The notes under the pieces are model-generated. The model saw nothing but the letters and a program-made list of their open reading frames with translations. It made no database searches and was not told the DNA's origin. DNA of 38,091 nucleotides from Marine Group II euryarchaeote MED-G35 (GTDB lineage: Archaea > Thermoplasmatota > Poseidoniia > Poseidoniales > Thalassarchaeaceae), in assembly GCA_002457155.1 (NCBI GenBank), contig NTJS01000013.1, positions 1 through 38,091 on the forward strand. Direction: 5' to 3'. Positions 6,248-34,643 of the stretch are shown here, in pieces. Position 1 is the stretch's first letter; each line of letters starts with the position of its first letter. The position numbers were made by a program, and so were the translations under genes.

Positions 6248-9200
6248 TCAGTCCTTGCGTCTTCCGGCTACTAGTATAGCCGCGCCCAGCACTGATGCCA
6301 GGCCTGTGATTGCCGTGAACCCTGGTAGGATCCCTCCGCTGTCTGGTTCCCCGGGTTCTTCGACTCCGTCGTCAGGGATTCCATCGCCGTCAGCGTCGTC
6401 ATCTGCGTTGTCGCCGATTCCGTCTCCGTCGGTGTCCTTGGTCTCGCTGGGATCGGTTGGGAACGCGTCAGCGTTGTTGCCGACACCGTCGCCGTCCGAG
6501 TCAACCTTCTCGTTGGGGTCGTTAGGGGCCCAGTCCGCGTTGTCGCCGGTCCCGTCACCGTCCGAGTCCCTGCTCTCGTATGGGTCGGACATGAATGCGT
6601 CCGAGTTGTCGCCCACGCCGTCACCGTCGTAGTCGCTCCACTCACCTGCATCGTTGGGGAACACATCAGCCACGTCTCCGTAGCCGTCTCCGTCGGTGTC
6701 GCTAGACTCGTTCGGATCCAGTGGGAAGGCGTCTGAGGTGTCAGGCGTGCCGTCGTTGTCGTCGTCCGTGTCCGCGTTGTCCCCTGTTCCGTCTCCATCG
6801 GAGTCGATGTACTCGTTCGGGTTGTTAGGGAATGCGTCCTCCTCGTCGCCGACGCCGTCACCGTCGCTGTCCGTGGACTCACCGCTGTTCAGAGGGAAGT
6901 CGTCCAAGTCGTTCGGGGTCCCGTCTCCGTCAGCGTCTTCGTCCGAGTTGTCGCCGGTTCCGTCGCCGTCTGTGTCGGTGGTCTCGTTGGCGTCGTTCGG
7001 GAAGTCGTCTCCGTTGTCGCCCACTCCGTCACCATCGGTGTCCGTGGTCTCGTTGGCATCGAACGGGAAGTCGTCCTGGTCGTCGTTCACGCCGTCCCCG
7101 TCGCTGTCCTCGTCGGTGTCATCGGTTCCGTCTCCGTCAGCATCGGTGTCCGCGTTGTCGCCCACGCCGTCGCCGTCTGTGTCCACCCACTCGGTAGCAT
7201 CGTTGGGGAACGCATCGGAGTTGTCTCCCCATCCGTCTCCGTCCGAGTCCGCGCTTTCGCTTGCGTCCCATGGGAAGGCATCGCCGTTGTCGCCGACGCC
7301 GTCTCCGTCCGCGTCGTTCGTCTCGCTTGCGTCGTTCGGGAAGTCGTCACTGTTGTCTCCAACGCCGTCATCGTCCGAGTCGGCCCACTCCTCGGGGTCG
7401 TCTGGGAACCTGTCGTCGCTGTCGCTGTATCCGTCGCCGTCTGAGTCGACGTCAGCAGTGAAGACGATCTCCATGTAGGCGAAATGCTCGCCGGCATCCA
7501 GATCAACACACTCGTCGACGCCCAATTCGGTCTCGTCGTAGGTCCAGGACGAGACCACGTATCCAGAGATAGATCCGTCAGTATGTGCTCCACACAGGGT
7601 TGAATCAACTAGTAGGCCATCATCCTCTTCGGGGTCGTCTCCTTCGTAGCTGAGAGTCAACTCCGAGATATCCCCTATCGTCGATAGGTCGAATATCAGG
7701 TCGTAGGCAACCAATAGGCCGGCCGGTTCGGTTGGGTCCGTGGTTGTGAGGTGTACCTCCATGTAGACAATTATGCAATCTGGAGTGACTCCGTTCAGGT
7801 AGAATCCATCGGGACCCTCTCCTTCCTCGAGGCACTCTTCGGTGTTCCACCCTTCCATGAACATCTCCTCGAACTCCAACGCCTCGGAATCGTTCAGGAT
7901 CTCGTCGCCGTTGAAGTAGTCGTAGTCGATCTTAATCCTGATTTCGGGGTCCAGATCGCTCCATACGTCCAGGACCACCACAGACTGGTTCTCAGAGACA
8001 AGCACCAGATCAGCCGAGAATTCCTGATGGATTGTGAAGTCCTCGAAGGTCCAGTCAGGGCCGTCAGGGTCGTCAGGGCCATCGGGTCCGTCTTCCATGT
8101 CAGCGAGGCAGTCGGGGATTCCGTCTCCGTCGTCGTCCACGCTCATCATGGGGCCACCGATTATGGCGATGAACATGCCCATCATCGGGCCCTCCTCATC
8201 GTAGTCTTCCGTGGACACGCCGTGCACTCTGGCCTCAACCGCTACGAGGCAGGTGTCGTCGCTGAACTCAATATCGAAATCCTCGTGCATCACGTCGCTT
8301 GTAGCGGTGAACTCGATATCCTGCTCGTATTGGCCGCCGGCCTCGTCCTCTCCGTCGGGGCAGTCATCGTTCCCGTCGTTGACCTGGTATATCCAGACCT
8401 CTGACCCGTCGTTGCAGTCGAACCAGTTTATCGGGTCGCCGTTGTCGTCGTACTGCTGCTCGTCGGCTCCGTCCTCGCAGTCTTCGTACTCGTCGTTGAC
8501 GTAGTCGAAGGGGATCTCGTCACCGTTGCCGCAGACGAAGGTGCTGCCTCCTGTGTTCGGTAGGTCCACCCCTAACACCAGAGTGTAGTAGTCACCAGTC
8601 TCGAGGCCGTCTAGGGTCAGGTTCATCGCGTAGTTCCCTGCATCGTCGACTTGGTAGCCCATCCAGCCAAGTATCATCTCGACCTCGGAGCCCTCGTCCT
8701 CGTCCTCATCGCCTTCGCCTTCGGAGAAGAGTTCCGCCAGGTCAACGCCCTCGACGTCCTCCCACGTGCCGTCGTCCTCGATCTGCAGGGTGATTTCCAC
8801 CGGGAAAGACACCTCGCAGGGCCCGCTGAAGTCCCAGGAGTTGGAGTCAATGTACTTCCAGCCGTCCGTGATGTTGTCGTCATCCCAGTCTTCGGCCACG
8901 TGCAGCGAAGCGTGGATACCCAGCCCGCAGGTGGAGTTGTCCACCCAGTGAGTGTAGTCTACGGAGTGCTCATCCGAGGTCGCCGTGAAATTCTCCCCTT
9001 GGTGCGAATAATCGTATGACATCATCCCCATTGAGTACACAGTCCACTCGAGCCTGTATTCCATATTGGCGTCAAGATCGTCTATCTCGAAGGTCATGTC
9101 GAGGTCTCCCTCTGAGACCGTCGGAGTGCGGTATTCGATGCAGTACCAGATCGCGTCGTCAACGGAGAATTCGCAGGCATCGTGCGGGAACCAGAAGTAC

Positions 9201-12200
9201 CCGTAATCGTCGATGGTGCCGTCTCCGTCGTGGTCGTACGCCTGTTCGCACTCCCAGTCTCCGCCTGTGTCGGTGCAATCGTCGAACTCCATCCAATCCC
9301 CTTCCATCTCGTAGTCGACCATGGAGCCGTTTAGCTCGTAGGTCAGGTCGATGTTGGAGGGCGGCTGCTCGCATGGTCCTCCGAATCCGAAGTTGTCCCA
9401 GCCGATGTAGTCCCACCAGCCGTCATCGTTCATCGCATACAGGTTGACGCCGATGTGTATCGAGCAGGTGTGGTTGTCAGTCTCCAGGTAGAATGTCTCG
9501 GACATCTCCTCGGCGGTCGCGTTGAACTCGAACGAGTCCGAATCGTAGTCGCACCCAGTCATGGACTCACAGATCTGTGTGTTCCAATCAACTCTGTAGC
9601 TGGTTCCGACAATCAGGTCCCCCACCGTGAGCACCATCGTGTGGTTGCCCTCCTCGATGTGAGGTTGCATCTCACCGGTGATGCAGTACCACAGCATGTC
9701 GTCGTCGGACCACTCGCAGTCGTCATGTTCGAAGTGGTAGTACCCGTAGTCGTCGGTCTCGCCGTCGCCGTCCCAGTCGTACTCGACCTCGCACTCCCAC
9801 TGGTCACCGTTGTCGGTGCAGTCCTCGAACGACATGTAATGGTATTCCACCTCCCACTCCATACCGTCGTAGGTCAGGTTGAATGGGGATGGTTGCTCCT
9901 CGCAGGGTCCGGAGAATCCGAAGTGACCCCAGCCCATGTAGTTCCACGAGCCGTCATCGTCCACGCTCATGAGATCCGCATGGATGCCGAATCCGCAGGT
10001 GAAGTTGTCAGTCTCGACGTGGAACTCTATCGTCTCGTTCTCAGCTGTGGCCGTGAAGCTGTGGGCATCCGAGTCCCAGTCGCAGCCGCCCATCTTAATG
10101 CAAATCTCTAAGTCGATTCCAACCGAGTAGTTCTCGCCCACCTCGAGTCCCTCGACCAGGAGCTCCATCGTGTGGTTCCCCTCCTCGATGTGAGGTTGCA
10201 TCTCACCGATGATGCAGTACCAGACCATGTCGCTCTCGGACCACTCGCAGTCTTCATGTTCGAAGTGGTAGTACCCGTAGTCGTCGGTCTCGCCGTCGCC
10301 GTCCCAGTCGTACTCGACCTCGCACTCCCACTGGTCACCGTTGTCGGTGCAGTCCTCGAACGACATGTAATCGTAGTCCATCTCCCACTCCATACCGTCG
10401 TAGGTCAGGGTGAATGGGGATGGTGGCTGCTCGCAAGGGCCCCTGAATCCGAACCCCTCCCCGAAGATATGGTTCTGCGAGCTCTGCCCCAGGTGTGACA
10501 GTTCTGCATGCACATTGGCATAGCAGGTGAAGTTGCTCGTCTCCATGTGGAAAGTGACCGTCTCGTTCACGTCGGAAGCGGTGAAGTTGCTCACCATCTC
10601 CTCGTTGTCGCAACCCTGTTGTCCGCAGACATCCGTCTTCACATACACGGAGTAGTTCTCCCCAACCTCTAGGTCCTCGATGAGGAGCTCCATCGTGTGG
10701 TTCCCCTCCTCGATCGCCGGTCGCTCCATCCAGTCTATGCAGTACCAGACCATGTCGCTCTCGGACCACTCGCAGTCGTCGTACTCGTAGTAGTGGTAGT
10801 CGTACTCGTCGGTCACGCCGTCGCCGTCCCAGTCGTACTCGACCTCGCACTCCCAATGGTCCCCGGAGTCAGTGCAGTCGTCGTACTCCATGTAGTGGGG
10901 TTCCTCCTCCCACTCCACACCGTCATAGGTAAGAGTGAATGGCGATGGTTGCTGCTCGCAAGGGCCGAAGAATCCGAAGCGCTCCCAGAAGATATGGTTC
11001 TGCGAGCTCTGCCCCTGGTGTGAGTGAATCTCAGACAGTTCTGCATGCACACCGGCATAGCAGGTGAAGTTGCTCGTCTCCATGTGGAAAGTGACCGTCT
11101 CGTTCACGTCGGAAGCGGTGAAGTTGCTCACCATCTCCCCGTAGTCGCAACCGTGTTGTCCGCAGACCTCCGTCTCCACATACACGGAGTAGTTCTCCCC
11201 AACATCTAGGTCCTCGATGAGGAGCTCCATCGTGTGGTTCCCCTCCTCGATGTGAGGTTGCATCTCACCGATGATGCAGTACCAGACCATGTCGCTCTCG
11301 GACCACTCGCAGTCTTCATGTTCGAAGTAGTAGTACCCGTAGTCGTCGGTCTCGCCGTCGCCGTCCCAGTCGTACTCGACCTCGCACTCCCAATGGTCCC
11401 CGGAGTCAGTGCAGTCCTCGAACGCCATGTAATCGTAGTCCATCTCCCACTCCATACCGTCGTAGGTCAGGGTGAATGGGGAGACCGGTTCCTCGCACGG
11501 CCCCACGAACATGGCCCCATCGTGTATGGTTGGCCTCTCGTTGGGGAAGTTGCTGGGGTCATCCCAGACTCCGATGAAGATATCTCCTTCGCAGTCGTGA
11601 GGGAAAACCTCCAGCTCAGCCGTAATCGAGTAGTTCTCTGAGGTGCTGTTGAACTCCACGTATCCTGGGTCAAGTTGATCCATGACCACTGCGTAGTGAG
11701 TGCTCGTGTTGAGGGTGGTGATGTTCACCATTACGTCATAGACTCCCTCTTCCAACATGGTCGGGGTCAGGAGTGTGTTGTTCTCCGTGAACTCGTGATC
11801 CTCGCTCTGGCCAAACGAATCGGTGCACAACCACCCATCGTTGGTCTCCTCGCAGTAGTACCACCAATCTCCATCGTAGTCTAGCTCGCCGTCACCATCG
11901 TAATCATCGCCGCACAACCAGAAGGTGTCCTCATCGGACCAGTAGCAGAACGAATACCACTCGGCTTCGTTGTTGAAGCCACCGAGGTCCCTCCACTCTC
12001 CAGCGTCTTCGTCCCACACGGTCACCGTTATGGGGTCGATGCATGGACCCCCCATGAGAGCCACGAAGGCTCCGATTGCGTCTCCTGAGTCGTCCATCAG
12101 AACTGCTTGGATCCATATTTCGCAAGTCATAAGCAGTACGTCGAAGTCGAAGTCGAGCAGTGATCCGGGATCGGTGCCGCTCCAGTTGGCCATCGATTCA

Positions 12201-12871
12201 GAAAATTGTTCCTCTCCCGCCTCAACGATCCACATCAGAGAGTATGAGCCAGTGGATGTCAGATTTGCCACCGCGAAGTGTGCATCGTAGTTGCCTGCGT
12301 CGAGCGATATGTTCTGGTCGAAGTCGAAACCGTCGACGGTTTCATCCGATCCATCCCCGTCTAGGTCCATTACCAGGGTGATGTCACCGGTATTCCCACA
12401 GGGGCCGAAGATTTGCCATGAAAACCACCATTCGACAGCGGATGTCTCGTTCTCCAGGTTCGCGTTGATACCCACATCGCAATCCATTACTCCGAGGGTG
12501 AGGTTCCAATACTCGGCGCTGGAATCGCTCATCGCTGTCCAACTCCTGGTCTCGTCGACCGTTTCCGAGCAGTCGCCGCCAAACTCGCAGACTTCTGCAT
12601 TCCAATCCAAGGAGTAGTTTTCATTGGAGGTCAGGTTCATGGAGGTGAATCTGAACTCGTAGGTCCCGGCATCCATGAAGCCGTCCATCATGGGGTCCGA
12701 GTAATGCGGAACTCCAACCCATGTTCCATTGTCATTCATCTCCAGAATGAGTGGTTCTGCCTGAGGGGGGTTAGCAGACACCGGGGCCGCTAGGGGCGCA
12801 AGTGCAGATACCAACATTATCAGGCTGATACTCAGTGTTCTGGTCTTTCTTGTAACGCTATCGCTATACAT
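6248..12871 (-). CDS. Giant secreted surface protein: repeat modules, LDL-A-like motifs, thrombospondin-3-type Asp repeats, PGF-type C-terminal anchor
   Basis: Very acidic exported protein of about 2207 residues. It starts with a signal peptide (Arg/Lys, then LSISLIMLVSALAPLA, cleavage near PVSA). Residues ~25-460 hold three or more diverged modules with a YSLDW-type strand and many N-x-S/T sites. Residues ~460-1355 are five tandem ~177-residue modules, each with a DCTD...WECEVEYDWDGDG acidic Cys-rich part, a GNHTMELLIEDLEVGENYSV strand pair and a closing GPCE. Two LDL-receptor-A-like motifs lie at ~1444-1510. Residues ~1806-2168 are thrombospondin-3-type calcium-binding repeats (DSDGDGVGDNSDAFPND). 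The tail LPGFTAITGLASVLGAAI plus RRK fits a PGF-CTERM archaeosortase signal. The frame is open from 12961, but the ATG at 12871 gives a clean signal peptide, avoids overlap with ribD and has a TATA box at -28. Likely roles are S-layer-like coat or adhesion; substrate unknown. Confidence 0.9.
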   Translation of the reverse strand: MYSDSVTRKTRTLSISLIMLVSALAPLAAPVSANPPQAEPLILEMNDNGTWVGVPHYSDPMMDGFMDAGTYEFRFTSMNLTSNENYSLDWNAEVCEFGGDCSETVDETRSWTAMSDSSAEYWNLTLGVMDCDVGINANLENETSAVEWWFSWQIFGPCGNTGDITLVMDLDGDGSDETVDGFDFDQNISLDAGNYDAHFAVANLTSTGSYSLMWIVEAGEEQFSESMANWSGTDPGSLLDFDFDVLLMTCEIWIQAVLMDDSGDAIGAFVALMGGPCIDPITVTVWDEDAGEWRDLGGFNNEAEWYSFCYWSDEDTFWLCGDDYDGDGELDYDGDWWYYCEETNDGWLCTDSFGQSEDHEFTENNTLLTPTMLEEGVYDVMVNITTLNTSTHYAVVMDQLDPGYVEFNSTSENYSITAELEVFPHDCEGDIFIGVWDDPSNFPNERPTIHDGAMFVGPCEEPVSPFTLTYDGMEWEMDYDYMAFEDCTDSGDHWECEVEYDWDGDGETDDYGYYYFEHEDCEWSESDMVWYCIIGEMQPHIEEGNHTMELLIEDLDVGENYSVYVETEVCGQHGCDYGEMVSNFTASDVNETVTFHMETSNFTCYAGVHAELSEIHSHQGQSSQNHIFWERFGFFGPCEQQPSPFTLTYDGVEWEEEPHYMEYDDCTDSGDHWECEVEYDWDGDGVTDEYDYHYYEYDDCEWSESDMVWYCIDWMERPAIEEGNHTMELLIEDLEVGENYSVYVKTDVCGQQGCDNEEMVSNFTASDVNETVTFHMETSNFTCYANVHAELSHLGQSSQNHIFGEGFGFRGPCEQPPSPFTLTYDGMEWEMDYDYMSFEDCTDNGDQWECEVEYDWDGDGETDDYGYYHFEHEDCEWSESDMVWYCIIGEMQPHIEEGNHTMELLVEGLEVGENYSVGIDLEICIKMGGCDWDSDAHSFTATAENETIEFHVETDNFTCGFGIHADLMSVDDDGSWNYMGWGHFGFSGPCEEQPSPFNLTYDGMEWEVEYHYMSFEDCTDNGDQWECEVEYDWDGDGETDDYGYYHFEHDDCEWSDDDMLWYCITGEMQPHIEEGNHTMVLTVGDLIVGTSYRVDWNTQICESMTGCDYDSDSFEFNATAEEMSETFYLETDNHTCSIHIGVNLYAMNDDGWWDYIGWDNFGFGGPCEQPPSNIDLTYELNGSMVDYEMEGDWMEFDDCTDTGGDWECEQAYDHDGDGTIDDYGYFWFPHDACEFSVDDAIWYCIEYRTPTVSEGDLDMTFEIDDLDANMEYRLEWTVYSMGMMSYDYSHQGENFTATSDEHSVDYTHWVDNSTCGLGIHASLHVAEDWDDDNITDGWKYIDSNSWDFSGPCEVSFPVEITLQIEDDGTWEDVEGVDLAELFSEGEGDEDEDEGSEVEMILGWMGYQVDDAGNYAMNLTLDGLETGDYYTLVLGVDLPNTGGSTFVCGNGDEIPFDYVNDEYEDCEDGADEQQYDDNGDPINWFDCNDGSEVWIYQVNDGNDDCPDGEDEAGGQYEQDIEFTATSDVMHEDFDIEFSDDTCLVAVEARVHGVSTEDYDEEGPMMGMFIAIIGGPMMSVDDDGDGIPDCLADMEDGPDGPDDPDGPDWTFEDFTIHQEFSADLVLVSENQSVVVLDVWSDLDPEIRIKIDYDYFNGDEILNDSEALEFEEMFMEGWNTEECLEEGEGPDGFYLNGVTPDCIIVYMEVHLTTTDPTEPAGLLVAYDLIFDLSTIGDISELTLSYEGDDPEEDDGLLVDSTLCGAHTDGSISGYVVSSWTYDETELGVDECVDLDAGEHFAYMEIVFTADVDSDGDGYSDSDDRFPDDPEEWADSDDDGVGDNSDDFPNDASETNDADGDGVGDNGDAFPWDASESADSDGDGWGDNSDAFPNDATEWVDTDGDGVGDNADTDADGDGTDDTDEDSDGDGVNDDQDDFPFDANETTDTDGDGVGDNGDDFPNDANETTDTDGDGTGDNSDEDADGDGTPNDLDDFPLNSGESTDSDGDGVGDEEDAFPNNPNEYIDSDGDGTGDNADTDDDNDGTPDTSDAFPLDPNESSDTDGDGYGDVADVFPNDAGEWSDYDGDGVGDNSDAFMSDPYESRDSDGDGTGDNADWAPNDPNEKVDSDGDGVGNNADAFPTDPSETKDTDGDGIGDNADDDADGDGIPDDGVEEPGEPDSGGILPGFTAITGLASVLGAAILVAGRRKD
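6369..7457 (-). repeat. Coding tandem repeats of thrombospondin type-3 kind
   Basis: About 15 degenerate units of ~66-75 bases encode D(S/T)DGDGxGDNxDxFPxDxxE. Every second or third Asp forms a calcium-binding DxDxDG loop. The block accounts for the GTCGCC/CCGTC-rich periodicity seen on the plus strand. Confidence 0.85.
8810..11490 (-). repeat. Five tandem ~530-bp coding modules
   Basis: Modules begin near 11486, 10947, 10420, 9889 and 9360, a spacing of 527-539 bases. Modules 1-4 share long stretches of nearly identical DNA (for example the segments encoding WECEVEYDWDGDG and CEWSESDMVWYCI), which points to recent duplication or gene conversion; module 5 is diverged. Confidence 0.85.
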
Positions 12872-12895
12872 GTAAGTCGGTTGGCATAACCTGTC

Positions 12896-12903
12896 ATATT
12901 TAA
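12896..12903 (-). promoter_or_regulatory. TATA box TTAAATAT of the giant surface-protein gene
   Basis: Centred about 28 bases upstream of the ATG at 12871, in an A+T-rich gap between ribD and the signal peptide. The spacing predicts a leaderless mRNA and supports 12871 as the start. Confidence 0.6.
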
Positions 12904-12948
12904 CCGTAGACCCTACACAGTTTACCATTTTGAATAGTGAAAATATTG

Positions 12949-14028
12949 CTACTTCCACCACTGAATTATATCACCAGAGTCATTGCTCTCTGAGTATATC
13001 TCCATTCCATATTCGGTCAAATCTGTGTCGAACTTCTGTCCGCCCGAGGGAAGCTCTAGGGAAGAGATACATATTCTCGCCTTATCCACTAGTTCTGAAG
13101 AAAGGAACCTCCTCCAAGTCTCGACCCCTCCCTCTACCAAAAGAGACTGGATCCCCATATCGCCGAGCATATGCAGCAGGTTCGGTATGGGTATGTCGGG
13201 ACCTGGCAGGACTGCACGACTAACATGGGCCCCATCAGATGAGTTGTCGAAGATAGAAGACTGGACCAGCAGGGTCGGGGCTTCCTCATCCGATAGCAGC
13301 CTGCAGCCTTCTGGAATTCTGTTTCTTGGATCCAGAACAACCCTTAGCGGTTGGCTCCTAGGATTGATTTCCGGGCCTCTGACGGTCAAGCAAGGGTTGT
13401 CCCTGATCACAGTGCCCACGCCTACTAGTATTGCCATGGAGTCGGCTCTCAAAGCGTGAGACATCTCAAGTGACTCGGTCGAGCTGAATCTTCTCGCAGG
13501 TTCGGAGGGGTCCCCATCCACCCTTCCTCTGGAGTCAGTGGATGCCTTCAGAGTCACAAGAGGTCTTTTCTCCCTGCACCAATGTATGAATTCACCCATC
13601 TGCTCTTCGCAGGCTTCTCCGAGGAGTCCTGTGGTTACTTCAACGCCATTCTCCATTAGCATAATGGCGCCATCACCCCTGACAGTCGGATTGGGGTCCA
13701 TTGCCCCAATAACCACCTTCTCCACTCCTGCCCACAATAGTGACTCGGTGCAAGGAGGCGTCCTCCCGAAATGATTGCATGGCTCCAATGTCACGTAAGC
13801 GGTGGTTCCCTGCGTTATGACTCCCTTGGCCTCAGCGTCCGCGATCGCCATCTGCTCTGCATGGAGCCCGCCGATGTGATCGTGCCATCCCTCTGCCACC
13901 ACCTCCCCGTCCCTGACTAGGACGCATCCGACTAGGGGGTTGGGCATCACTCGGTGTCGGCCCCTCTCAGCCAGCTCTATCGCCCTCCGCATGTGAGACT
14001 CTCCCTCGGGCATGTAATCCCCCGTCAT
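12949..14028 (-). CDS. ribD: Bifunctional riboflavin biosynthesis deaminase/reductase RibD
   Basis: Two steps of riboflavin synthesis: deamination of diaminohydroxyphosphoribosylaminopyrimidine, then NADPH-dependent reduction of the ribosyl side chain. The N-terminal cytidine-deaminase-fold domain (about 1-145) shows MRRAIELAERGRHRVMPNP, zinc ligand HAE (HAEQMA) and PCNHFGRTPPC. The C-terminal reductase domain (about 155-355) shows PLVTLKASTDSRG, the GVGTVIRDNPCLTVR loop and LLVEGGVETWRRFL near the end. The 359-residue length is normal for the bacterial bifunctional form; many archaea instead use separate enzymes. The ATG at 14028 is used; an ATG 15 bases downstream is also plausible. Divergent from the kinase gene, upstream of the giant gene. 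Confidence 0.93.
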   Translation of the reverse strand: MTGDYMPEGESHMRRAIELAERGRHRVMPNPLVGCVLVRDGEVVAEGWHDHIGGLHAEQMAIADAEAKGVITQGTTAYVTLEPCNHFGRTPPCTESLLWAGVEKVVIGAMDPNPTVRGDGAIMLMENGVEVTTGLLGEACEEQMGEFIHWCREKRPLVTLKASTDSRGRVDGDPSEPARRFSSTESLEMSHALRADSMAILVGVGTVIRDNPCLTVRGPEINPRSQPLRVVLDPRNRIPEGCRLLSDEEAPTLLVQSSIFDNSSDGAHVSRAVLPGPDIPIPNLLHMLGDMGIQSLLVEGGVETWRRFLSSELVDKARICISSLELPSGGQKFDTDLTEYGMEIYSESNDSGDIIQWWK

Positions 14029-16516: not shown

Positions 16517-17635
16517 TCAGTATAGATAGAAGAACGGGAAGACCAGGACCCACACAAGGTCCACGAAGTGCCAGTAGAGCCCGAAGTACTCTATGGAGAC
16601 CGCGTTGTCGGGGGTGTATCCTCCCTTGGCGGCCTTCAGGGTCATGTAGCTAAGGCCGATTATGCCACCGAAGACGTGGGCACCGTGGGTGCCCGTGGTG
16701 ACGTAGAAGGTGGTGGCGCTGACTTGGATGTCAGCCATCATGTGACCTCCTGGGTGAGTACCCGCCTCCATCATGGCGTATAGCTCCGAATCATGGTCAA
16801 GGCCATGCCCATGCGACTCCAGGTAGTGTGTGTCGTATGCATGGTGCTGGTAGTGGTCCGCGTTGATCAGGTAGCCCTCTGCATACAGGGACTTGATGGA
16901 GGAGTCACCGTGGTTGAACTCGTGCAAGAAATCGGGCAGGGGGAAGCCTAGGAACCACTCGATCATCTTCATGGTCAGGAAAAGTATGGCGAGGAACCAG
17001 GTAGTTCCCAGGTAACGAGTGATCTTCCTCCTCCTCACATCCTCTTCGATGTCCTTCATCTTCGCGTAGCGAAGTGCCTGCACTATGGTGAAGGAGGAGA
17101 TGATCAGGGCGAATGTGTTGATGGCCCCGGGAGCGATGTGGAACCAACTGGAGGCAATCAGATGGCTGGCTGGCTCGAAGCAGGTTACTGCAGTCCCCTC
17201 CACCCACTCACCGGATTCGAATACGGTCTGGCAGTTGGGGATCCCGAACCGGTACCTCATGTAGGTGCTGAACAAGGATGTGAAGACCATCATCTCGGAC
17301 ATCAGGAAAACCCACATCGCCACCTTCCTGATGTCTATGTTCTGGAACGGCGTCCCAGTCGACTTTGGCTCGAACACCTCTCCGTTCATTCCGAAGCTCA
17401 TGTCCTGCCTCCACCAGACAAGCAGGCTGAATCCTACCACACCAAGACCGACGAATATCAGTGGGACGCTGCCCCATCCTTGGAACTCGCCCCACTCGTA
17501 GGCCCCGGCGAGGGCGAATAGGAAGATGGCCACCCCCATGCTCAGGATGAATGGCGCCCATGAGTTGTGGGGAGCTCCATGGTTCCAGTCATGCGGTCCC
17601 CATGCGCTGGGATGGTGGTGGTCGTCTTGGCTCAA
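16517..17635 (-). CDS. coxC: Cytochrome c oxidase subunit III
   Basis: Seven-helix core subunit of the aa3 oxidase, 372 residues. Family blocks are RKVAMWVFLMSEMMVFTSLF, ASSWFHIAPGAINTFALIIS, the ATTFYVTTGTHGAHVFGGII helix and the C-terminal YWHFVDLVWVLVFPFFYLY. A His-rich stretch (about 265-295, HYQHHAYDTHYLESHGHGLDH) interrupts the usual sequence between helices and would lie outside the membrane. The start is TTG, overlapping the stop of subunit I as TTGA, with GAGGAGG seven bases upstream; this points to translational coupling and balanced synthesis of subunits I and III. Confidence 0.93.
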   Translation of the reverse strand: MSQDDHHHPSAWGPHDWNHGAPHNSWAPFILSMGVAIFLFALAGAYEWGEFQGWGSVPLIFVGLGVVGFSLLVWWRQDMSFGMNGEVFEPKSTGTPFQNIDIRKVAMWVFLMSEMMVFTSLFSTYMRYRFGIPNCQTVFESGEWVEGTAVTCFEPASHLIASSWFHIAPGAINTFALIISSFTIVQALRYAKMKDIEEDVRRRKITRYLGTTWFLAILFLTMKMIEWFLGFPLPDFLHEFNHGDSSIKSLYAEGYLINADHYQHHAYDTHYLESHGHGLDHDSELYAMMEAGTHPGGHMMADIQVSATTFYVTTGTHGAHVFGGIIGLSYMTLKAAKGGYTPDNAVSIEYFGLYWHFVDLVWVLVFPFFYLY

Positions 17636-19968
17636 TGTGCCGCCTCCTCTGTGTCGTCATCTGATACCAATAGCTTCCCGAACCACGTGGAAAGCCAACC
17701 AGGCTCGTTCGCGATGTGCTCGTTAGCATCCCTCAGCGTTGGTATTCCCCAGCTTCCGTCATCAAGCTTGTAGAGAGTGTGTGCCGGTGGTGGTGAACTG
17801 GTCATCCACTCGAAGGACCATCCGCCCCATGGGTCGTCAGGGGCATCCTCCCCCCTGATCGAGGAAGCTATCATGTTGAACACCATTATGAAGTTCGAGA
17901 AGAAGAAGAGGAATCCGGAGACAGTGATGAACATGTTCCAGCCCGCCGCTTCCATCGGCAACGAGCCGAGGGCCTCCTCCGTAGTCACGAAGTAGGTGTG
18001 GTGCCTGCGTGTCATGCCCCAGACTCCCAGTCTGTGCATTGGCCAGAAGAGGGCGTTGTAGGAGACGAAGGCCGTCAGGAAGTGGAGCACGCCTAGCTTC
18101 TCGCTCAGCATCTTCCCGGTTGCCTTGGGCCACCAGTAGTAGATCCCGGAGAAGAATCCGAAGACGGTTCCCCCAACTAGGACGTAGTGGAAGTGAGCCA
18201 CTACGAAGTAGGATTCGTGCAGGTGGGTGTCCATAGCTATCGAGGGGAAGAACATCCCCGAGATCCCCCCGAGTGTGAAGGTGACTAGGAATCCGAGAGC
18301 CCACAGAGTATGCGTCCTGTATACCAGGGATCCCCCATGCATCGTCATCAACCAGTTGAACACCTTGATTCCGGTTGGTACGGCAACCAGCATCGTCGTT
18401 AGCATCGTCACGAATCTGAGTGTCGGGCTCATCCCGCTGGTGAACATGTGGTGGCCGTAGACGATGAAGGCAACTATTCCAATGCCCGCCATCGCGTAAA
18501 CCATCGATCTGTATCCGAAGACTGATCTCCTGGAACTGGTGGCAATAACCTCTGATATAATACCGAATGAAGGAACCACGACCACGTAGACCTCCGGGTG
18601 ACCGAAGTACCAGAACAGGTGACTCCACAGCAATGGGTCACCCCCGGCCGCAATGTCGTAGAAGGCGGTCCCCACTACCCTATCCAGGTAGACCTGAATA
18701 AGCCCCACCCCGAAAGCAGGGATTGAGAGGAATAGCATCACGTTGGCAACCAGGATCGACCAGCTGAAGAGGGGCATCTGCATCCACCCCATCCCAGGAG
18801 CCCTCATCACGGCCATGGTGGTCAGGAAGTTGATCCCAGTTAGGGTCGATGACGCTACGAGCATGATCTGCCCCGCTGCCCACATGGTCGTACCATGGTG
18901 AGCTCCCTCGCTGACCACGTAGGGAGCATATCCCGTCCATCCCGTGTCCGCGCCGTGGCCCGAGAAGACGCCTGTGAATATCAGAAGGGCTGCGAATGGC
19001 TGTAACCAGAATGACATCGCGTTTATCCTGGGCAGAGCCAAGTCAGCTGCTCCCAACTGAAGTGGGATCATCCAGTTTGCGAAGCCGTTGATCATAGGCA
19101 TAGCGGCCAGGAAGATCATGGTCGTCCCGTGCAGAGTGAAGAACTGGTTGTACTGCTCCTGCGTTAGGAAGTCGTTACCGGGAACTGCGAGTTGGATCCT
19201 GATAATCATCGCCATAATCCCGCCCACCCCTAGGAAGAACAGTCCAGCGACGAAGTATAGGGTGCCTATCTTCTTGTGATCGGTGCTAGTCATCCAATCA
19301 GCGAGCCACGGTGCGAAGTTGTCCCAGTCGAAAGCATCGGGGTCCCTTCTGTAGAAGACGTATGCGAGGGTGATGGCAAGAAGTGACGCGGAGACGATGA
19401 TCAGAACCCCGAGAACGACGAACGGGTCGGCTGCCTCCAAGACCTCTATCGGCCCTCCTAGGGAAACTGTGGCTTTGCTCCACATGTCTCCTGTCGAACC
19501 CCCTGCAGCCCCGTCTTCGTTTCCGTTGACTGAGTTGACATGGAGAACGAAATCCACATTCTTATCCGTTGCGGGTGCGGTCCACGTCACTGTCCACGAA
19601 ACCTGGTCGTTGCCGGCATCCGTGTGCCCAACCTCGTTCTGATTGAATACCTGAGCGGTTGCATCGTTCACGGAAAGCGTCCCTTCGCTCGCCCATAGGT
19701 GGAAGCCGCCTTGGTTCACGTTACCCTCCTGAGTAGGCCCTCCTTGGAAGGAGACCGTTATCTCGTACTCTTCCGAGTAGTTGTAACTCTGCGGAAGGCC
19801 GTCTATCGATGCCACCACTGAATCTGAAGGAAGGTTACCGTGGCACATGCAACCTGATTCTTGTACTCCAGAGACCCCCTCTGGGCGAGACTGTGCCGAT
19901 GGCAATGCGAGCATGGCAGCTATTGCTACCAGAGTCATGATTGCCACCTTTGACCTTGCCTTCAACAT
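17632..19968 (-). CDS. coxA: Cytochrome c oxidase subunit I with an N-terminal secreted CxCH (Reeler/choice-of-anchor-like) domain
   Basis: Catalytic subunit of an aa3-type oxidase, 778 residues against about 530-600 normally. Residues 1-27 look like a signal peptide. Residues 28-175 form an exported beta-type domain with G-C-M-C-H-G at 39-44 and the pattern of Reeler-like 'choice-of-anchor' domains that usually carry CxxCH. A helix (181-204) follows, then the oxidase core: heme a ligand H279, CuB/active-site H456-P-E458-V-Y460 (A1 type: Glu of the D channel and cross-linked Tyr), H505/H506, K-channel K534, and H591/H593. D-channel Asp is in AADLALPR, while the second Asn of the usual NNMS is Ala (INAMS). 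Second gene of the cluster, 10 bases after subunit II; GAGGT overlaps that stop. Confidence 0.95.
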   Translation of the reverse strand: MLKARSKVAIMTLVAIAAMLALPSAQSRPEGVSGVQESGCMCHGNLPSDSVVASIDGLPQSYNYSEEYEITVSFQGGPTQEGNVNQGGFHLWASEGTLSVNDATAQVFNQNEVGHTDAGNDQVSWTVTWTAPATDKNVDFVLHVNSVNGNEDGAAGGSTGDMWSKATVSLGGPIEVLEAADPFVVLGVLIIVSASLLAITLAYVFYRRDPDAFDWDNFAPWLADWMTSTDHKKIGTLYFVAGLFFLGVGGIMAMIIRIQLAVPGNDFLTQEQYNQFFTLHGTTMIFLAAMPMINGFANWMIPLQLGAADLALPRINAMSFWLQPFAALLIFTGVFSGHGADTGWTGYAPYVVSEGAHHGTTMWAAGQIMLVASSTLTGINFLTTMAVMRAPGMGWMQMPLFSWSILVANVMLFLSIPAFGVGLIQVYLDRVVGTAFYDIAAGGDPLLWSHLFWYFGHPEVYVVVVPSFGIISEVIATSSRRSVFGYRSMVYAMAGIGIVAFIVYGHHMFTSGMSPTLRFVTMLTTMLVAVPTGIKVFNWLMTMHGGSLVYRTHTLWALGFLVTFTLGGISGMFFPSIAMDTHLHESYFVVAHFHYVLVGGTVFGFFSGIYYWWPKATGKMLSEKLGVLHFLTAFVSYNALFWPMHRLGVWGMTRRHHTYFVTTEEALGSLPMEAAGWNMFITVSGFLFFFSNFIMVFNMIASSIRGEDAPDDPWGGWSFEWMTSSPPPAHTLYKLDDGSWGIPTLRDANEHIANEPGWLSTWFGKLLVSDDDTEEAAH

Positions 19969-31957: not shown

Positions 31958-32935
31958 ATGGCAAAGAGTGGACTGGGCAGAGGCCTGGAGGAAATATACT
32001 CCAGCACAGAAGGCCCCGACCTTTCCTCATTCGTAACCGAGGAAGAGATGCCAGACTCACCTAGGGCAGCCGTCCTCTGGATGATTTTCGGAAGCGTCTG
32101 CTTTGGAACGATGAATGCGCTGGTAAAGTGGACGAGCGACCATGCTGATGTGTGGATGATCATCATGGTTAGATCTGCAGTGATTGCATTCGCAGTGGCT
32201 GCTTTCGCCGCATCCCGGGGAATCAGCTTGAGGGTCAATGACAAGAAGACAATGCTGCTCAGATGCTCAGTAGGACTTCTGGCGATGATTCTCTACTTCA
32301 CCGCACTCGGAAGGATCCCCATAGGCCAAGCTGTCACTCTCCAGTACACAGGCCCGCTTTTCGTAGCGCTGCTTTCGGGCAGGATTCTGGCAGAACGCGT
32401 CTCATCTGGCGTTGCCATGCTCGTCATTACTGCATTTGTTGGAATCATCCTGATTATCTCACCTGAACTGGGAAGCATCGAGCCAGATGCACTCTTGGCA
32501 TTAGGATCCGGATTCTTCGCTGCTCTAGCATACATGTACGTAAGGGAACTCAGGAAGACCGACTCTCCTGCTACTGTAGTGTTCTGGTTCGCAGCCTTCT
32601 CTGTTTGTGGAAGCATCATCCAAGCCGCTCCCGATGTCCCATCTCTAGATTACACAACAATCGCTTCTCTGGTTGGAGTAGGGATTGGGGCAGGAGGTGG
32701 GCAGATTGGAATCACAATGGCATACCACAAGGCGAATGCTGCATGGGTCAGCGCCTTCTCCTACCTCACTGTAATAGTAGCAACTTTCTACGGATTTGCT
32801 ATTTTCGGAGAGACTCTCGATCCTGCGGACTGGATGGGCGGACTGCTCATCATTGGGTCGGGAGTGGCATTGGTGTTTGCCGTACCTCCGGAAGATGCCT
32901 CACGACAGGGGCAGAGCTCACGAGACGCTTCCTAG
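31958..32935 (+). CDS. DMT/EamA-family 10-TM transporter with ParB-like N-terminal motif
   Basis: About 325 residues. The first ~40 residues (MAKSGLGRGLEEIYSS and an acidic stretch) are cytosolic and match the N-terminal consensus of chromosomal ParB proteins (GLGRGL followed by a short helix), the peptide by which ParB stimulates ParA ATP hydrolysis. The rest is a drug/metabolite transporter with two EamA repeats of five helices each: first from AAVLWMIFGSVCFGTMNALV to about VGIILIISP, second from about LLALGSGFFAALAYMYVREL to the end. Substrate unknown. The ATG lies one base after the parA stop, so the two are surely co-transcribed. An upstream ATG at 31892 would overlap parA and lose the family-like start. 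The 3' end overlaps the convergent lipoprotein gene by 18 bases. Confidence 0.88.
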   Translation: MAKSGLGRGLEEIYSSTEGPDLSSFVTEEEMPDSPRAAVLWMIFGSVCFGTMNALVKWTSDHADVWMIIMVRSAVIAFAVAAFAASRGISLRVNDKKTMLLRCSVGLLAMILYFTALGRIPIGQAVTLQYTGPLFVALLSGRILAERVSSGVAMLVITAFVGIILIISPELGSIEPDALLALGSGFFAALAYMYVRELRKTDSPATVVFWFAAFSVCGSIIQAAPDVPSLDYTTIASLVGVGIGAGGGQIGITMAYHKANAAWVSAFSYLTVIVATFYGFAIFGETLDPADWMGGLLIIGSGVALVFAVPPEDASRQGQSSRDAS

Positions 32936-33928
32936 GGATTGTATAGAAATCTCTCCCCCCATGTTTCCATGGTTCTGACAATAGTAGTACAGTGTGTCTG
33001 GAGCATCCAAAGGAACAGTGAATGTCAGCAGGCCGTTCGAGCCCTGGTTACCTGTGTATGTCACCCCATCAGTATACTGGGACCCTCCCCCGTGCGTTCC
33101 ATCACTGGTGGTGGATAGCCTAAGCGGATGGGGGGAGTTGCTAGATGCAGACTGATCGAAGGTGTATGTGAAGCCCCTGTAGAGAGTTACGTCCGCTTGC
33201 AGTATGGAGTCAATGTAGAATTTCATCCCTGTGACTGTGACGTCCATCTCCATCACCACGGGCATCGAACCAGCAGCCCCATCCTCTCCAGCAGGACCCT
33301 CTGGTCCGGTCGGACCCGCCTCACCATCTGCTCCCGCCGAGCCCGCAACACCATCTGCTCCAGGAGGTCCCTGTGACCCAGTAGTGCCCTCTGGTCCTGA
33401 GATATTCCCGAGATCAATCCACTCAGAGCCACTCCAAACGTGGATGTGTACGGTCGAGTTAACCATGAAAGCGTCCCCTGAGTCGCCTATGTATATCTCT
33501 CCGAGGTCAGAAGTGTCCTCCACGGTTCCGATAATAGAGAACGAGGTCCCATCTTCTCCTGCTTGGCCTGCTGGGCCCTCTTCTCCGTCTGCCCCCGCTG
33601 GGCCTGCTGGGCCCGCTTCTCCGTCTGCCCCCGCTGGGCCTGCTGGGCCCTGTTCCCCATTCGGGCCAGTTAGGTCAATCGAATGCCACGAACCGTTCGA
33701 GCAGGCTTGGAATCCCGACTCAGAAGACACATAGTAGAGTCTTCCTTCTGTTGCTGAATCGCATGAAGGAAGGTCGGAAGAGCCCTGCACCAGGAAAACG
33801 TCCCAGTCCTCGAGATCCTTGGGATCATCATCCACATCGTCATCGGTGCCGGAGCAACCCGAAAGGGCAGAGGCAGTCATCAGTAGGGCTAGTAGAATCG
33901 CCAAGGCGTTCTTTCTGGTACTCTTCAT
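32918..33928 (-). CDS. Lipoprotein with collagen-like repeats and type-1 copper (cupredoxin) domain
   Basis: 336-residue exported lipoprotein. The signal peptide ends in lipobox ALSGC, with lipidated Cys25, followed by an Asp-rich spacer. A small domain (about 40-87) precedes 13 G-x-y triplets (88-127). A beta-type segment (128-177) separates these from 14 further triplets (178-220). The C-terminal domain (222-336) has cupredoxin ligands H267 (SPHPLR), C317, H320 and M323 (YYCQNHGNMGG), i.e. a plastocyanin/azurin-like blue-copper site. The collagen stretches probably hold the copper domain away from the membrane. It may donate electrons to the CuA oxidase of this organism; that link is inference. 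A GATTAAGT box lies 27 bases before the ATG. Confidence 0.9.
   Translation of the reverse strand: MKSTRKNALAILLALLMTASALSGCSGTDDDVDDDPKDLEDWDVFLVQGSSDLPSCDSATEGRLYYVSSESGFQACSNGSWHSIDLTGPNGEQGPAGPAGADGEAGPAGPAGADGEEGPAGQAGEDGTSFSIIGTVEDTSDLGEIYIGDSGDAFMVNSTVHIHVWSGSEWIDLGNISGPEGTTGSQGPPGADGVAGSAGADGEAGPTGPEGPAGEDGAAGSMPVVMEMDVTVTGMKFYIDSILQADVTLYRGFTYTFDQSASSNSPHPLRLSTTSDGTHGGGSQYTDGVTYTGNQGSNGLLTFTVPLDAPDTLYYYCQNHGNMGGEISIQSLGSVS
33581..33652 (-). repeat. 36-bp direct repeat encoding collagen triplets
   Basis: Two adjacent, almost identical 36-base units (33581-33616 and 33617-33652) encode four G-x-y triplets each within the first collagen-like stretch; a site for length change by slippage. 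Confidence 0.8.
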
Positions 33929-33956: not shown

Positions 33957-34643
33957 TCAATCTCGGAAAACCGAGACCTCTTCCAACGCCTTTCTCGACA
34001 AATCGGGAACTTTGGCACCCTCTGCAGGATAACCGACGGGGAGTAGCAGCATTGCGTGTTCGTGCTTGGGCCTCTGGAGTATTTCCCTCAGGAAACCCAT
34101 CGGAGAGGGCGTGTGAGGGAGGGTCGCAAGACCCATGTTGTGGATCGCTGATATGAACAGGCCAGCTGCAATTCCACAAGACTCCTGTGAGTAGTATGTG
34201 GGTGCTAAACCATCTCCCCTTTCCCTCTTTGAGTGTCTGAACAGGACAATAACCCATGGAGCTTCAGTGATGTGTTCCTTCACATGATCGGTACCAAGTG
34301 GTGCTAGTACTTCCTCCCACTCCTCGGGAATCCTCTCCTCGTAGAACCTAGACTCTTCCTTCTCCGCCTCCTCCCGGATCACCTCCTTCAAGTCCTTGTT
34401 CGAGATTGCCACGAATGTCCATGGCTGGAGATGGGCCCCGGAGGGTGCAGTGCTTGCTGTCCTAATTGCAAGCTCAATCAATTCACGGGGGACCTCTCGA
34501 TTGGAGAAGTGCCGGGTGGTCCTCCGACGGTCCATCTGCTCGTAGAATGAACGTGCCTTGGAAAGCATGGTTTCGCTTTCAACCTCGATGAACTCCAAGT
34601 CAATGAAGCCTGGCTCCTCGGCGTCCGTCATGTTCCTACTCAC
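33957..34643 (-). CDS. Nitroreductase-fold flavoprotein, iodotyrosine-deiodinase (IYD)-like
   Basis: FMN-dependent oxidoreductase of 228 residues. RRRTTRHFSNREVP (about 39-52) and APSGAHLQPWTFVAIS are the FMN-phosphate and flavin-binding blocks. The lid and dimer parts match the iodotyrosine deiodinase branch: IPEEWEEVLAPLGTD, ITEAPWVIVLF, YYSQESCGIAAGLFISAIHNMGLA, then HTPSPMGFL and LLPVGYPAE. The IYD branch reductively removes halogens from halotyrosines; in microbes the true substrate is often unknown. No signal peptide, so it is cytosolic. Its start overlaps the upstream PGF-tailed gene by four bases (ATGA), so the two are co-translated. Confidence 0.88.
   Translation of the reverse strand: MSRNMTDAEEPGFIDLEFIEVESETMLSKARSFYEQMDRRRTTRHFSNREVPRELIELAIRTASTAPSGAHLQPWTFVAISNKDLKEVIREEAEKEESRFYEERIPEEWEEVLAPLGTDHVKEHITEAPWVIVLFRHSKRERGDGLAPTYYSQESCGIAAGLFISAIHNMGLATLPHTPSPMGFLREILQRPKHEHAMLLLPVGYPAEGAKVPDLSRKALEEVSVFRD

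Follow-up and report, generated by a model that had tools for sequence, protein, structure and literature searches.

Halocyanin has been singled out in a metatranscriptome study as a highly transcribed copper carrier of Thalassarchaeaceae (PMC9723583), and adhesion has been proposed as a distinguishing, lineage-specific trait of Poseidoniales (PMC6461757). Among marine phages, the structural operons of pelagimyophages encode domains with a link to host recognition, including collagen repeats (PMC7029224).

We analysed a stretch of 38,091 nucleotides, referred to here as the window (contig NTJS01000013.1, positions 1 to 38,091 of the forward strand), from Marine Group II euryarchaeote MED-G35, a member of the Thalassarchaeaceae whose genome assembly (GCA_002457155.1) measures 1.2 Mb and is 68% complete. 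The initial annotation had read one of its genes as encoding a blue-copper lipoprotein on a collagen-like stalk that may carry electrons to the aa3 oxidase. The head, the stalk and the anchor of that reading are supported and the electron-carrier role is not; the likeness of two of the domains to phage tail modules had been overlooked.

Layout of the lipoprotein

The gene lies on the reverse strand at 33928–32918 including the stop codon (coding part 33928–32921) and its translation has 336 residues. Residues 1–24 (33857–33928) are a signal peptide, conserved in orthologues, which ends in the lipobox ALSG and is followed by Cys25 (33854–33856), the predicted lipidated residue. The lipobox ALSG|C25 was called by eye from the translation, and a similar lipobox is found in the archaeal orthologues; on this reading the protein has the signal peptide, lipobox and cysteine of a prokaryotic lipoprotein. 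A small N-terminal domain (residues 39–87, 33668–33814), in which C56 and C76 are conserved in the orthologue alignment, precedes a first collagen-like block of 13 G-x-y triplets (residues 88–126, 33551–33667), an inter-rod domain with a HVWSGSEWIDLG motif (residues 128–177, 33398–33547), a second block of 14 triplets (residues 178–219, 33272–33397) and a C-terminal cupredoxin-like head (residues 221–336, 32921–33268), all on the reverse strand. The initial annotation was right in every detail, namely the lipobox, the two blocks and the C-terminal residues H267, C317, H320 and M323; it had left the strand unstated. A structure model of residues 39–178 (pLDDT 62.8) is of moderate confidence and was used solely for the order of elements, which in the N-terminal domain appears to be the same as in the inter-rod domain. 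The matches of this model to viral structures, with their low TM-scores, offer supporting evidence at best.

Pfam Collagen recognized two stretches of the protein (E 1.6e-13, 50.6 bits against a cut-off of 27.2), which identifies them as collagen-like and, together with the lipobox, supports the anchored stalk claimed earlier. The longest G-x-y run, with edge triplets counted, is 15, compared with a maximum of 7 in 20,000 shuffles of the protein. The two blocks contain 15 Asp or Glu residues and neither Lys nor Arg. Rod length varies among complete orthologues, which have 25–44 triplets in all; at 0.286 nm per residue, this would correspond to rods of about 21–38 nm, long relative to a membrane oxidase. 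Collagen-like repeats trimerise. Scores against the Scl1, Scl2 and Lcl families of collagen-like adhesins fell far below their cut-offs. Four orthologues (L039, L041, L044 and L048) have an extra domain inside the second rod, with the motif NCPMGGNVVRIGMDDDGDG...VDQTLYVCNG.

Predicted fold and ligand set of the head

The AlphaFold2 model of the head is confident (pLDDT 93.9, pTM 0.86) and predicts a Greek-key beta sandwich. Its best Foldseek matches in the PDB were type-1 copper proteins: the cupredoxin domain of a three-domain nitrite reductase (NirK; 1.5e-4), rusticyanin and plastocyanin, with TMq 0.5–0.56. Immunoglobulin domains, which have the Greek-key plan in common with cupredoxins, appeared lower in the list, so the fold by itself is not conclusive, and we argue the cupredoxin assignment from the fold and the predicted ligand positions together. 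Cupredoxins have the Cys ligand at the end of the penultimate strand, and His and Met in the following loop. The predicted ligands of the head follow this order: H267 (33128–33130) lies just before strand 50–53 (model numbering), C317 (32978–32980) ends the penultimate strand 93–98, and H320 (32969–32971) and the predicted axial ligand M323 (32960–32962) are placed in the next loop, giving the set His...Cys-x-x-His-x(n)-Met. The spacing C-x2-H-x2-M is that of amicyanin.

The initial annotation had named the lack of a cupredoxin fold, or of conservation of the four ligands, as grounds for abandoning its proposal. The fold was found, and H267, C317, H320 and M323 are invariant in the alignment of all 19 archaeal orthologues. 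In an alignment of 58 sequences, 37 of the 42 non-orthologous copies (41 viral, one bacterial) keep all four residues; H267, C317 and H320 are each present in 38 of these copies and M323 in 39. His, Cys and His have been lost together in four of the five exceptions, as expected if the copper site works as a unit. The viral heads in which the three residues are missing (L069, L074, L139 and L141, and L084 in a separate alignment) would be natural copper-less variants. From the model and the alignments we infer a type-1-like site with one copper per head. A further histidine, H279, is not invariant and was discarded as a possible fifth ligand, being Asn in L005 and a gap or another residue elsewhere.

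No Pfam cupredoxin model scored above cut-off on the 336-residue protein, nor did NCBIfam give a cupredoxin call; Copper-bind (PF00127) gave sub-threshold matches in 7 of the 19 orthologues and none in the protein itself, which is thus not a PF00127 member. Alignment of the head with Poseidoniales halocyanins by hhalign gave E 6e-6, with C-x2-H aligned and His267 within one position of the halocyanin His. A sequence search of the PDB returned collagens and antibody chains only, and we dismissed the latter as a chance YYC..H similarity.

Kinship with marine phage tail proteins

Outside the archaea, the head is most closely related to marine phage virion proteins, with 304 phage records, nearly all from cyanophages and many of them gp9 baseplate/tail-fibre connectors. 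The head matched phrog_677 at 2.7e-20, and a search of BFVD with its model gave 70 matches with E ≤ 0.001 (best E 2e-15, TMq up to 0.90), the named ones being mostly cyanophage virion proteins. Both sequence and predicted fold therefore place it with the head domain of marine phage tail-fibre and baseplate proteins. H..C-x2-H-x2-M is kept in all eight of the cultured-phage copies that were read. The inter-rod domain, in turn, matched the tail-fibre family phrog_3904 (1.9e-6) and, by tblastn, tail-fibre and minor tail proteins of unrelated phages.

Of 102 ORFs, about 101 of them from virus contigs and one from a Flavobacteriaceae genome, 7 combine collagen runs and the head in a single chain. 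The C-terminal order in virus contig L130 is rod, inter-rod domain, rod and head, as in the archaeal protein. Collagen also adjoins the head in L137, L083, L064 and L071 and in Prochlorococcus phage P-SSM2, where the order is rod–head–rod (collagen–domain–collagen). The Flavobacteriaceae ORF (L061) is a lipoprotein that carries the head without collagen, so Poseidoniales archaea are not the only cells to use the domain.

In a tree of 89 heads, those of archaea cluster together at shallow depth, with deep viral branches around them. A transfer of the head domain from phage to archaeon is likely on this topology but weakly supported, because the archaeal grouping has a support of 51/79 and the root is a midpoint root.

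Distribution and genomic context

The lipoprotein gene is preceded on the same strand, 28 bases upstream, by a nitroreductase-family gene (33957–34643, reverse strand; PF00881), and its 3' end overlaps by 18 bases the convergent gene for an EamA-family transporter (31967–32935, forward strand; PF00892). Both neighbours are conserved in synteny. In genus g1, the conserved gene order is S8e, HAD hydrolase, nitroreductase, lipoprotein gene, EamA and ParA, and near-identical neighbourhoods occur in genomes named Ca. Thalassarchaeaceae or Marine Group II. Seventeen further archaeal loci, drawn from many assemblies, have S8e, nitroreductase, EamA or ParA beside the gene on at least one side. The gene therefore lies among conserved cellular neighbours and not in a phage structural region. 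Contig L038 carries the name of a bacterium, Acidiferrobacter sp., and the complete archaeal neighbourhood of the gene; it is misnamed or misbinned.

A search of the family found matches in 33 of 148 genomes, 17 of them in the genus of the window, its own genome included; a search of the phylum found matches in 12 of 390 genomes, mostly from the same genera. Several g3 contigs start inside the collagen repeat, at an assembly break, so absences are to be read with care. In genera g1, g3 and g5, the full-length orthologues have the complete layout; the neighbours of the gene in g3 and g5 differ from those in g1. The few weak matches in other genera (L031–L033) are long secreted or virus-like ORFs and not orthologues. 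A plasmid search for the gene gave no match.

The gene was not found in G121 (92% complete) or G141 (94% complete), both of which have COX2. In G141, the nitroreductase gene directly follows EamA, leaving the lipoprotein site empty, and in G121, G123, G136 and G147 an ORF that looks by eye like a glycosyltransferase adjoins EamA in place of the lipoprotein gene. The stretch between EamA and nitroreductase (L159–L163) is apparently a small variable site, occupied by the lipoprotein gene, a glycosyltransferase-like gene or nothing. The C-terminal domain has a dN/dS of 0.04–0.11 against its orthologues, as expected for a real gene under purifying selection. We conclude that the lipoprotein gene is chromosomal, selected and accessory in Ca. 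Thalassarchaeaceae.

Elsewhere in the window, positions 6248–12961 encode a very acidic secreted-type protein of 2237 residues with repeated blocks, a long DSDGDGVGDN-type (calcium-binding-like) repeat and no Pfam match.

Relationship to the aa3 oxidase and halocyanin

The proposal of an electron carrier had started from the absence of cytochrome c, a premise that our searches support: none scored above cut-off with PF00034 in the source genome or with PF13442 in the genus. Of 146 family genomes, 119 have a Copper-bind (PF00127) protein, as do at least 17 of the 28 congeners; no such protein was found in the source genome, which is 68% complete. Within the genus, nine genomes have both the lipoprotein and a Copper-bind protein, seven the lipoprotein only, eight a Copper-bind protein only and two neither, with two genomes undetermined. 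Because these counts reveal no clear exclusion, we rejected the idea that the lipoprotein replaces halocyanin. G137 (91% complete) has the lipoprotein and no Copper-bind protein.

COX2 was detected in 20 of 28 congeners, six of which have no detected lipoprotein (G121, G123, G126, G136, G141 and G147). The lipoprotein thus does not co-occur consistently with the oxidase, a statement that draws mainly on G121 and G141, the only two of the six with a completeness of 90% or more, and on the vacant locus in G141. Neither the lipoprotein nor a Copper-bind protein was found in G141.

Two features of the oxidase genes were seen in passing. At 17632–19968 of the window, COX1 is fused to an N-terminal choice-of-anchor V domain (NF041895, 1.3e-24, residues 25–167) with a C-x-C-H motif. 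A second, stronger COX2-type protein, possibly of a different oxidase, is encoded in three congeners with no detected Copper-bind protein (G132:C14:66612, L158; G137:C31:204304; G141:C44:66369).

Discussion

We favour, with a probability of about one half, the view that the protein forms a fibre on the archaeal surface, anchored by lipid and bearing copper-binding heads, which probably serves in attachment or recognition and does not act as a dedicated electron donor to the aa3 oxidase. Attachment or recognition is the most likely role because marine phage tail and baseplate proteins contain the same head and inter-rod domain; we prefer a fibre because phage fibres have both modules in this layout and because the gene has the character of an accessory trait of the cell surface. 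The architecture of L130, the conservation of the ligands with their concerted loss, the purifying selection, the fixed chromosomal locus in the genus, the accessory spread and the adhesion proposed as a trait of Poseidoniales (PMC6461757) are all in support. Three chains would trimerise through the collagen blocks, the rods would raise the heads some 20–30 nm above the membrane, and each head would hold its copper in the type-1-like site. By analogy with phage fibres, the assembly may contact particles, polymers or other cells, and the copper site may stabilize the head or act locally at the contact. Against the fibre, the head in many phage proteins belongs to the baseplate or a connector and is not a proven receptor-binding tip, and the strict conservation of the ligands could fit redox use equally. 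We regard as less likely the extended view that a functional type-1 copper head is common to phage virions and the archaeal fibre, that the copper is used at the contact, in redox chemistry or cross-linking, and that the archaeon took the tail-fibre design of head, inter-rod domain and rods for its envelope.

The same ligand set and fold would also suit a head that takes the place of halocyanin or cytochrome c, shuttling electrons at the surface to some acceptor, which may be the CuA centre of the aa3 oxidase. We regard this as doubtful, even with the lack of cytochrome c hits and of Copper-bind proteins in the source genome and six further lipoprotein carriers, G137 included. The gene is accessory and was not found in near-complete congeners that have COX2, one of which shows no Copper-bind protein either; the closest kin of the head are virion parts, not halocyanins or plastocyanins; nine congeners carry both proteins; long rods of variable length would argue against docking to a membrane oxidase; and the gene lies about 12 kb from the cox genes, with no shared operon. 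On this evidence we find no support for a dedicated donor role at the aa3 oxidase; some redox role may apply in this lineage, because the source genome and G137 show no Copper-bind protein. Surface heads might instead capture or buffer copper for supply or detoxification, for which the conserved ligands and a display on long rods, which would suit exposure to seawater, could be cited. This is unlikely, since the conserved neighbours include no copper transporter or chaperone gene and type-1 sites usually hold copper tightly.

Two further explanations take the phage-like modules as their starting point. A host-encoded copy of a fibre head could compete with virus fibres for a receptor, and the modules in common with phage fibres and the patchy presence at a site elsewhere empty or occupied by a glycosyltransferase-like gene would agree with such a decoy; we consider it improbable, because no virus of Poseidoniales archaea with a matching head was found and the archaeal head is less than 60% identical to viral heads. 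The modules could also betray a misbinned or prophage gene. We give this hardly any credence, since the cellular neighbours S8e, nitroreductase, EamA and ParA recur across many assemblies, refuting a prophage or contamination origin, and since the archaeal proteins have a lipobox and a low dN/dS.

Comparison with known systems

Each element of the lipoprotein is known. Our searches of the open-access literature turned up no account of an archaeal lipoprotein that unites them, or of a copper ligand set conserved in a domain of phage virions; they found no paper joining cupredoxin with tail fibre or cyanophage and none on collagen with this lipoprotein in Poseidoniales. The head domain of hundreds of marine phage structural proteins keeps the complete type-1 ligand set. 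Should these heads bind copper, the virions themselves would count as copper proteins, which would bear on their adsorption and stability and on marine copper. The archaeal protein offers a small version for direct tests of copper binding, and abundant uncultured archaea gain a candidate surface fibre of phage-like design.

A homologous head with H..C-x2-H-x2-M and a like predicted fold is found in the gp9 of marine T4-like cyanophages (baseplate wedge tail fibre connector, phrog_677), as well as in further virion proteins; unlike the lipoprotein, they are virion parts encoded in phage genomes, and the gp9 of S-ShM2 ends in the head and is not a lipoprotein. In the collagen-type tail fibres of P-SSM2 (ACY75904) and L130, collagen blocks adjoin the head, and L130 also has the inter-rod domain and a C-terminal head, whereas both are longer than the archaeal protein, with more repeats and no membrane anchor. 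The halocyanin/plastocyanin proteins of Poseidoniales (PF00127) have, like the lipoprotein, a cupredoxin fold with one His followed by Cys, His and Met. They differ in the His–Met spacing, four residues as against two in the lipoprotein, and the halocyanins that were read occur on fasciclin-repeat or C-terminally anchored proteins without collagen. The Flavobacteriaceae lipoprotein likewise has a C-terminal head, but in place of collagen it has two different beta domains, which by eye look like CHRD. The bacterial adhesins Scl1, Scl2 and Lcl likewise present collagen rods on a cell-surface protein, with other anchors and other heads.
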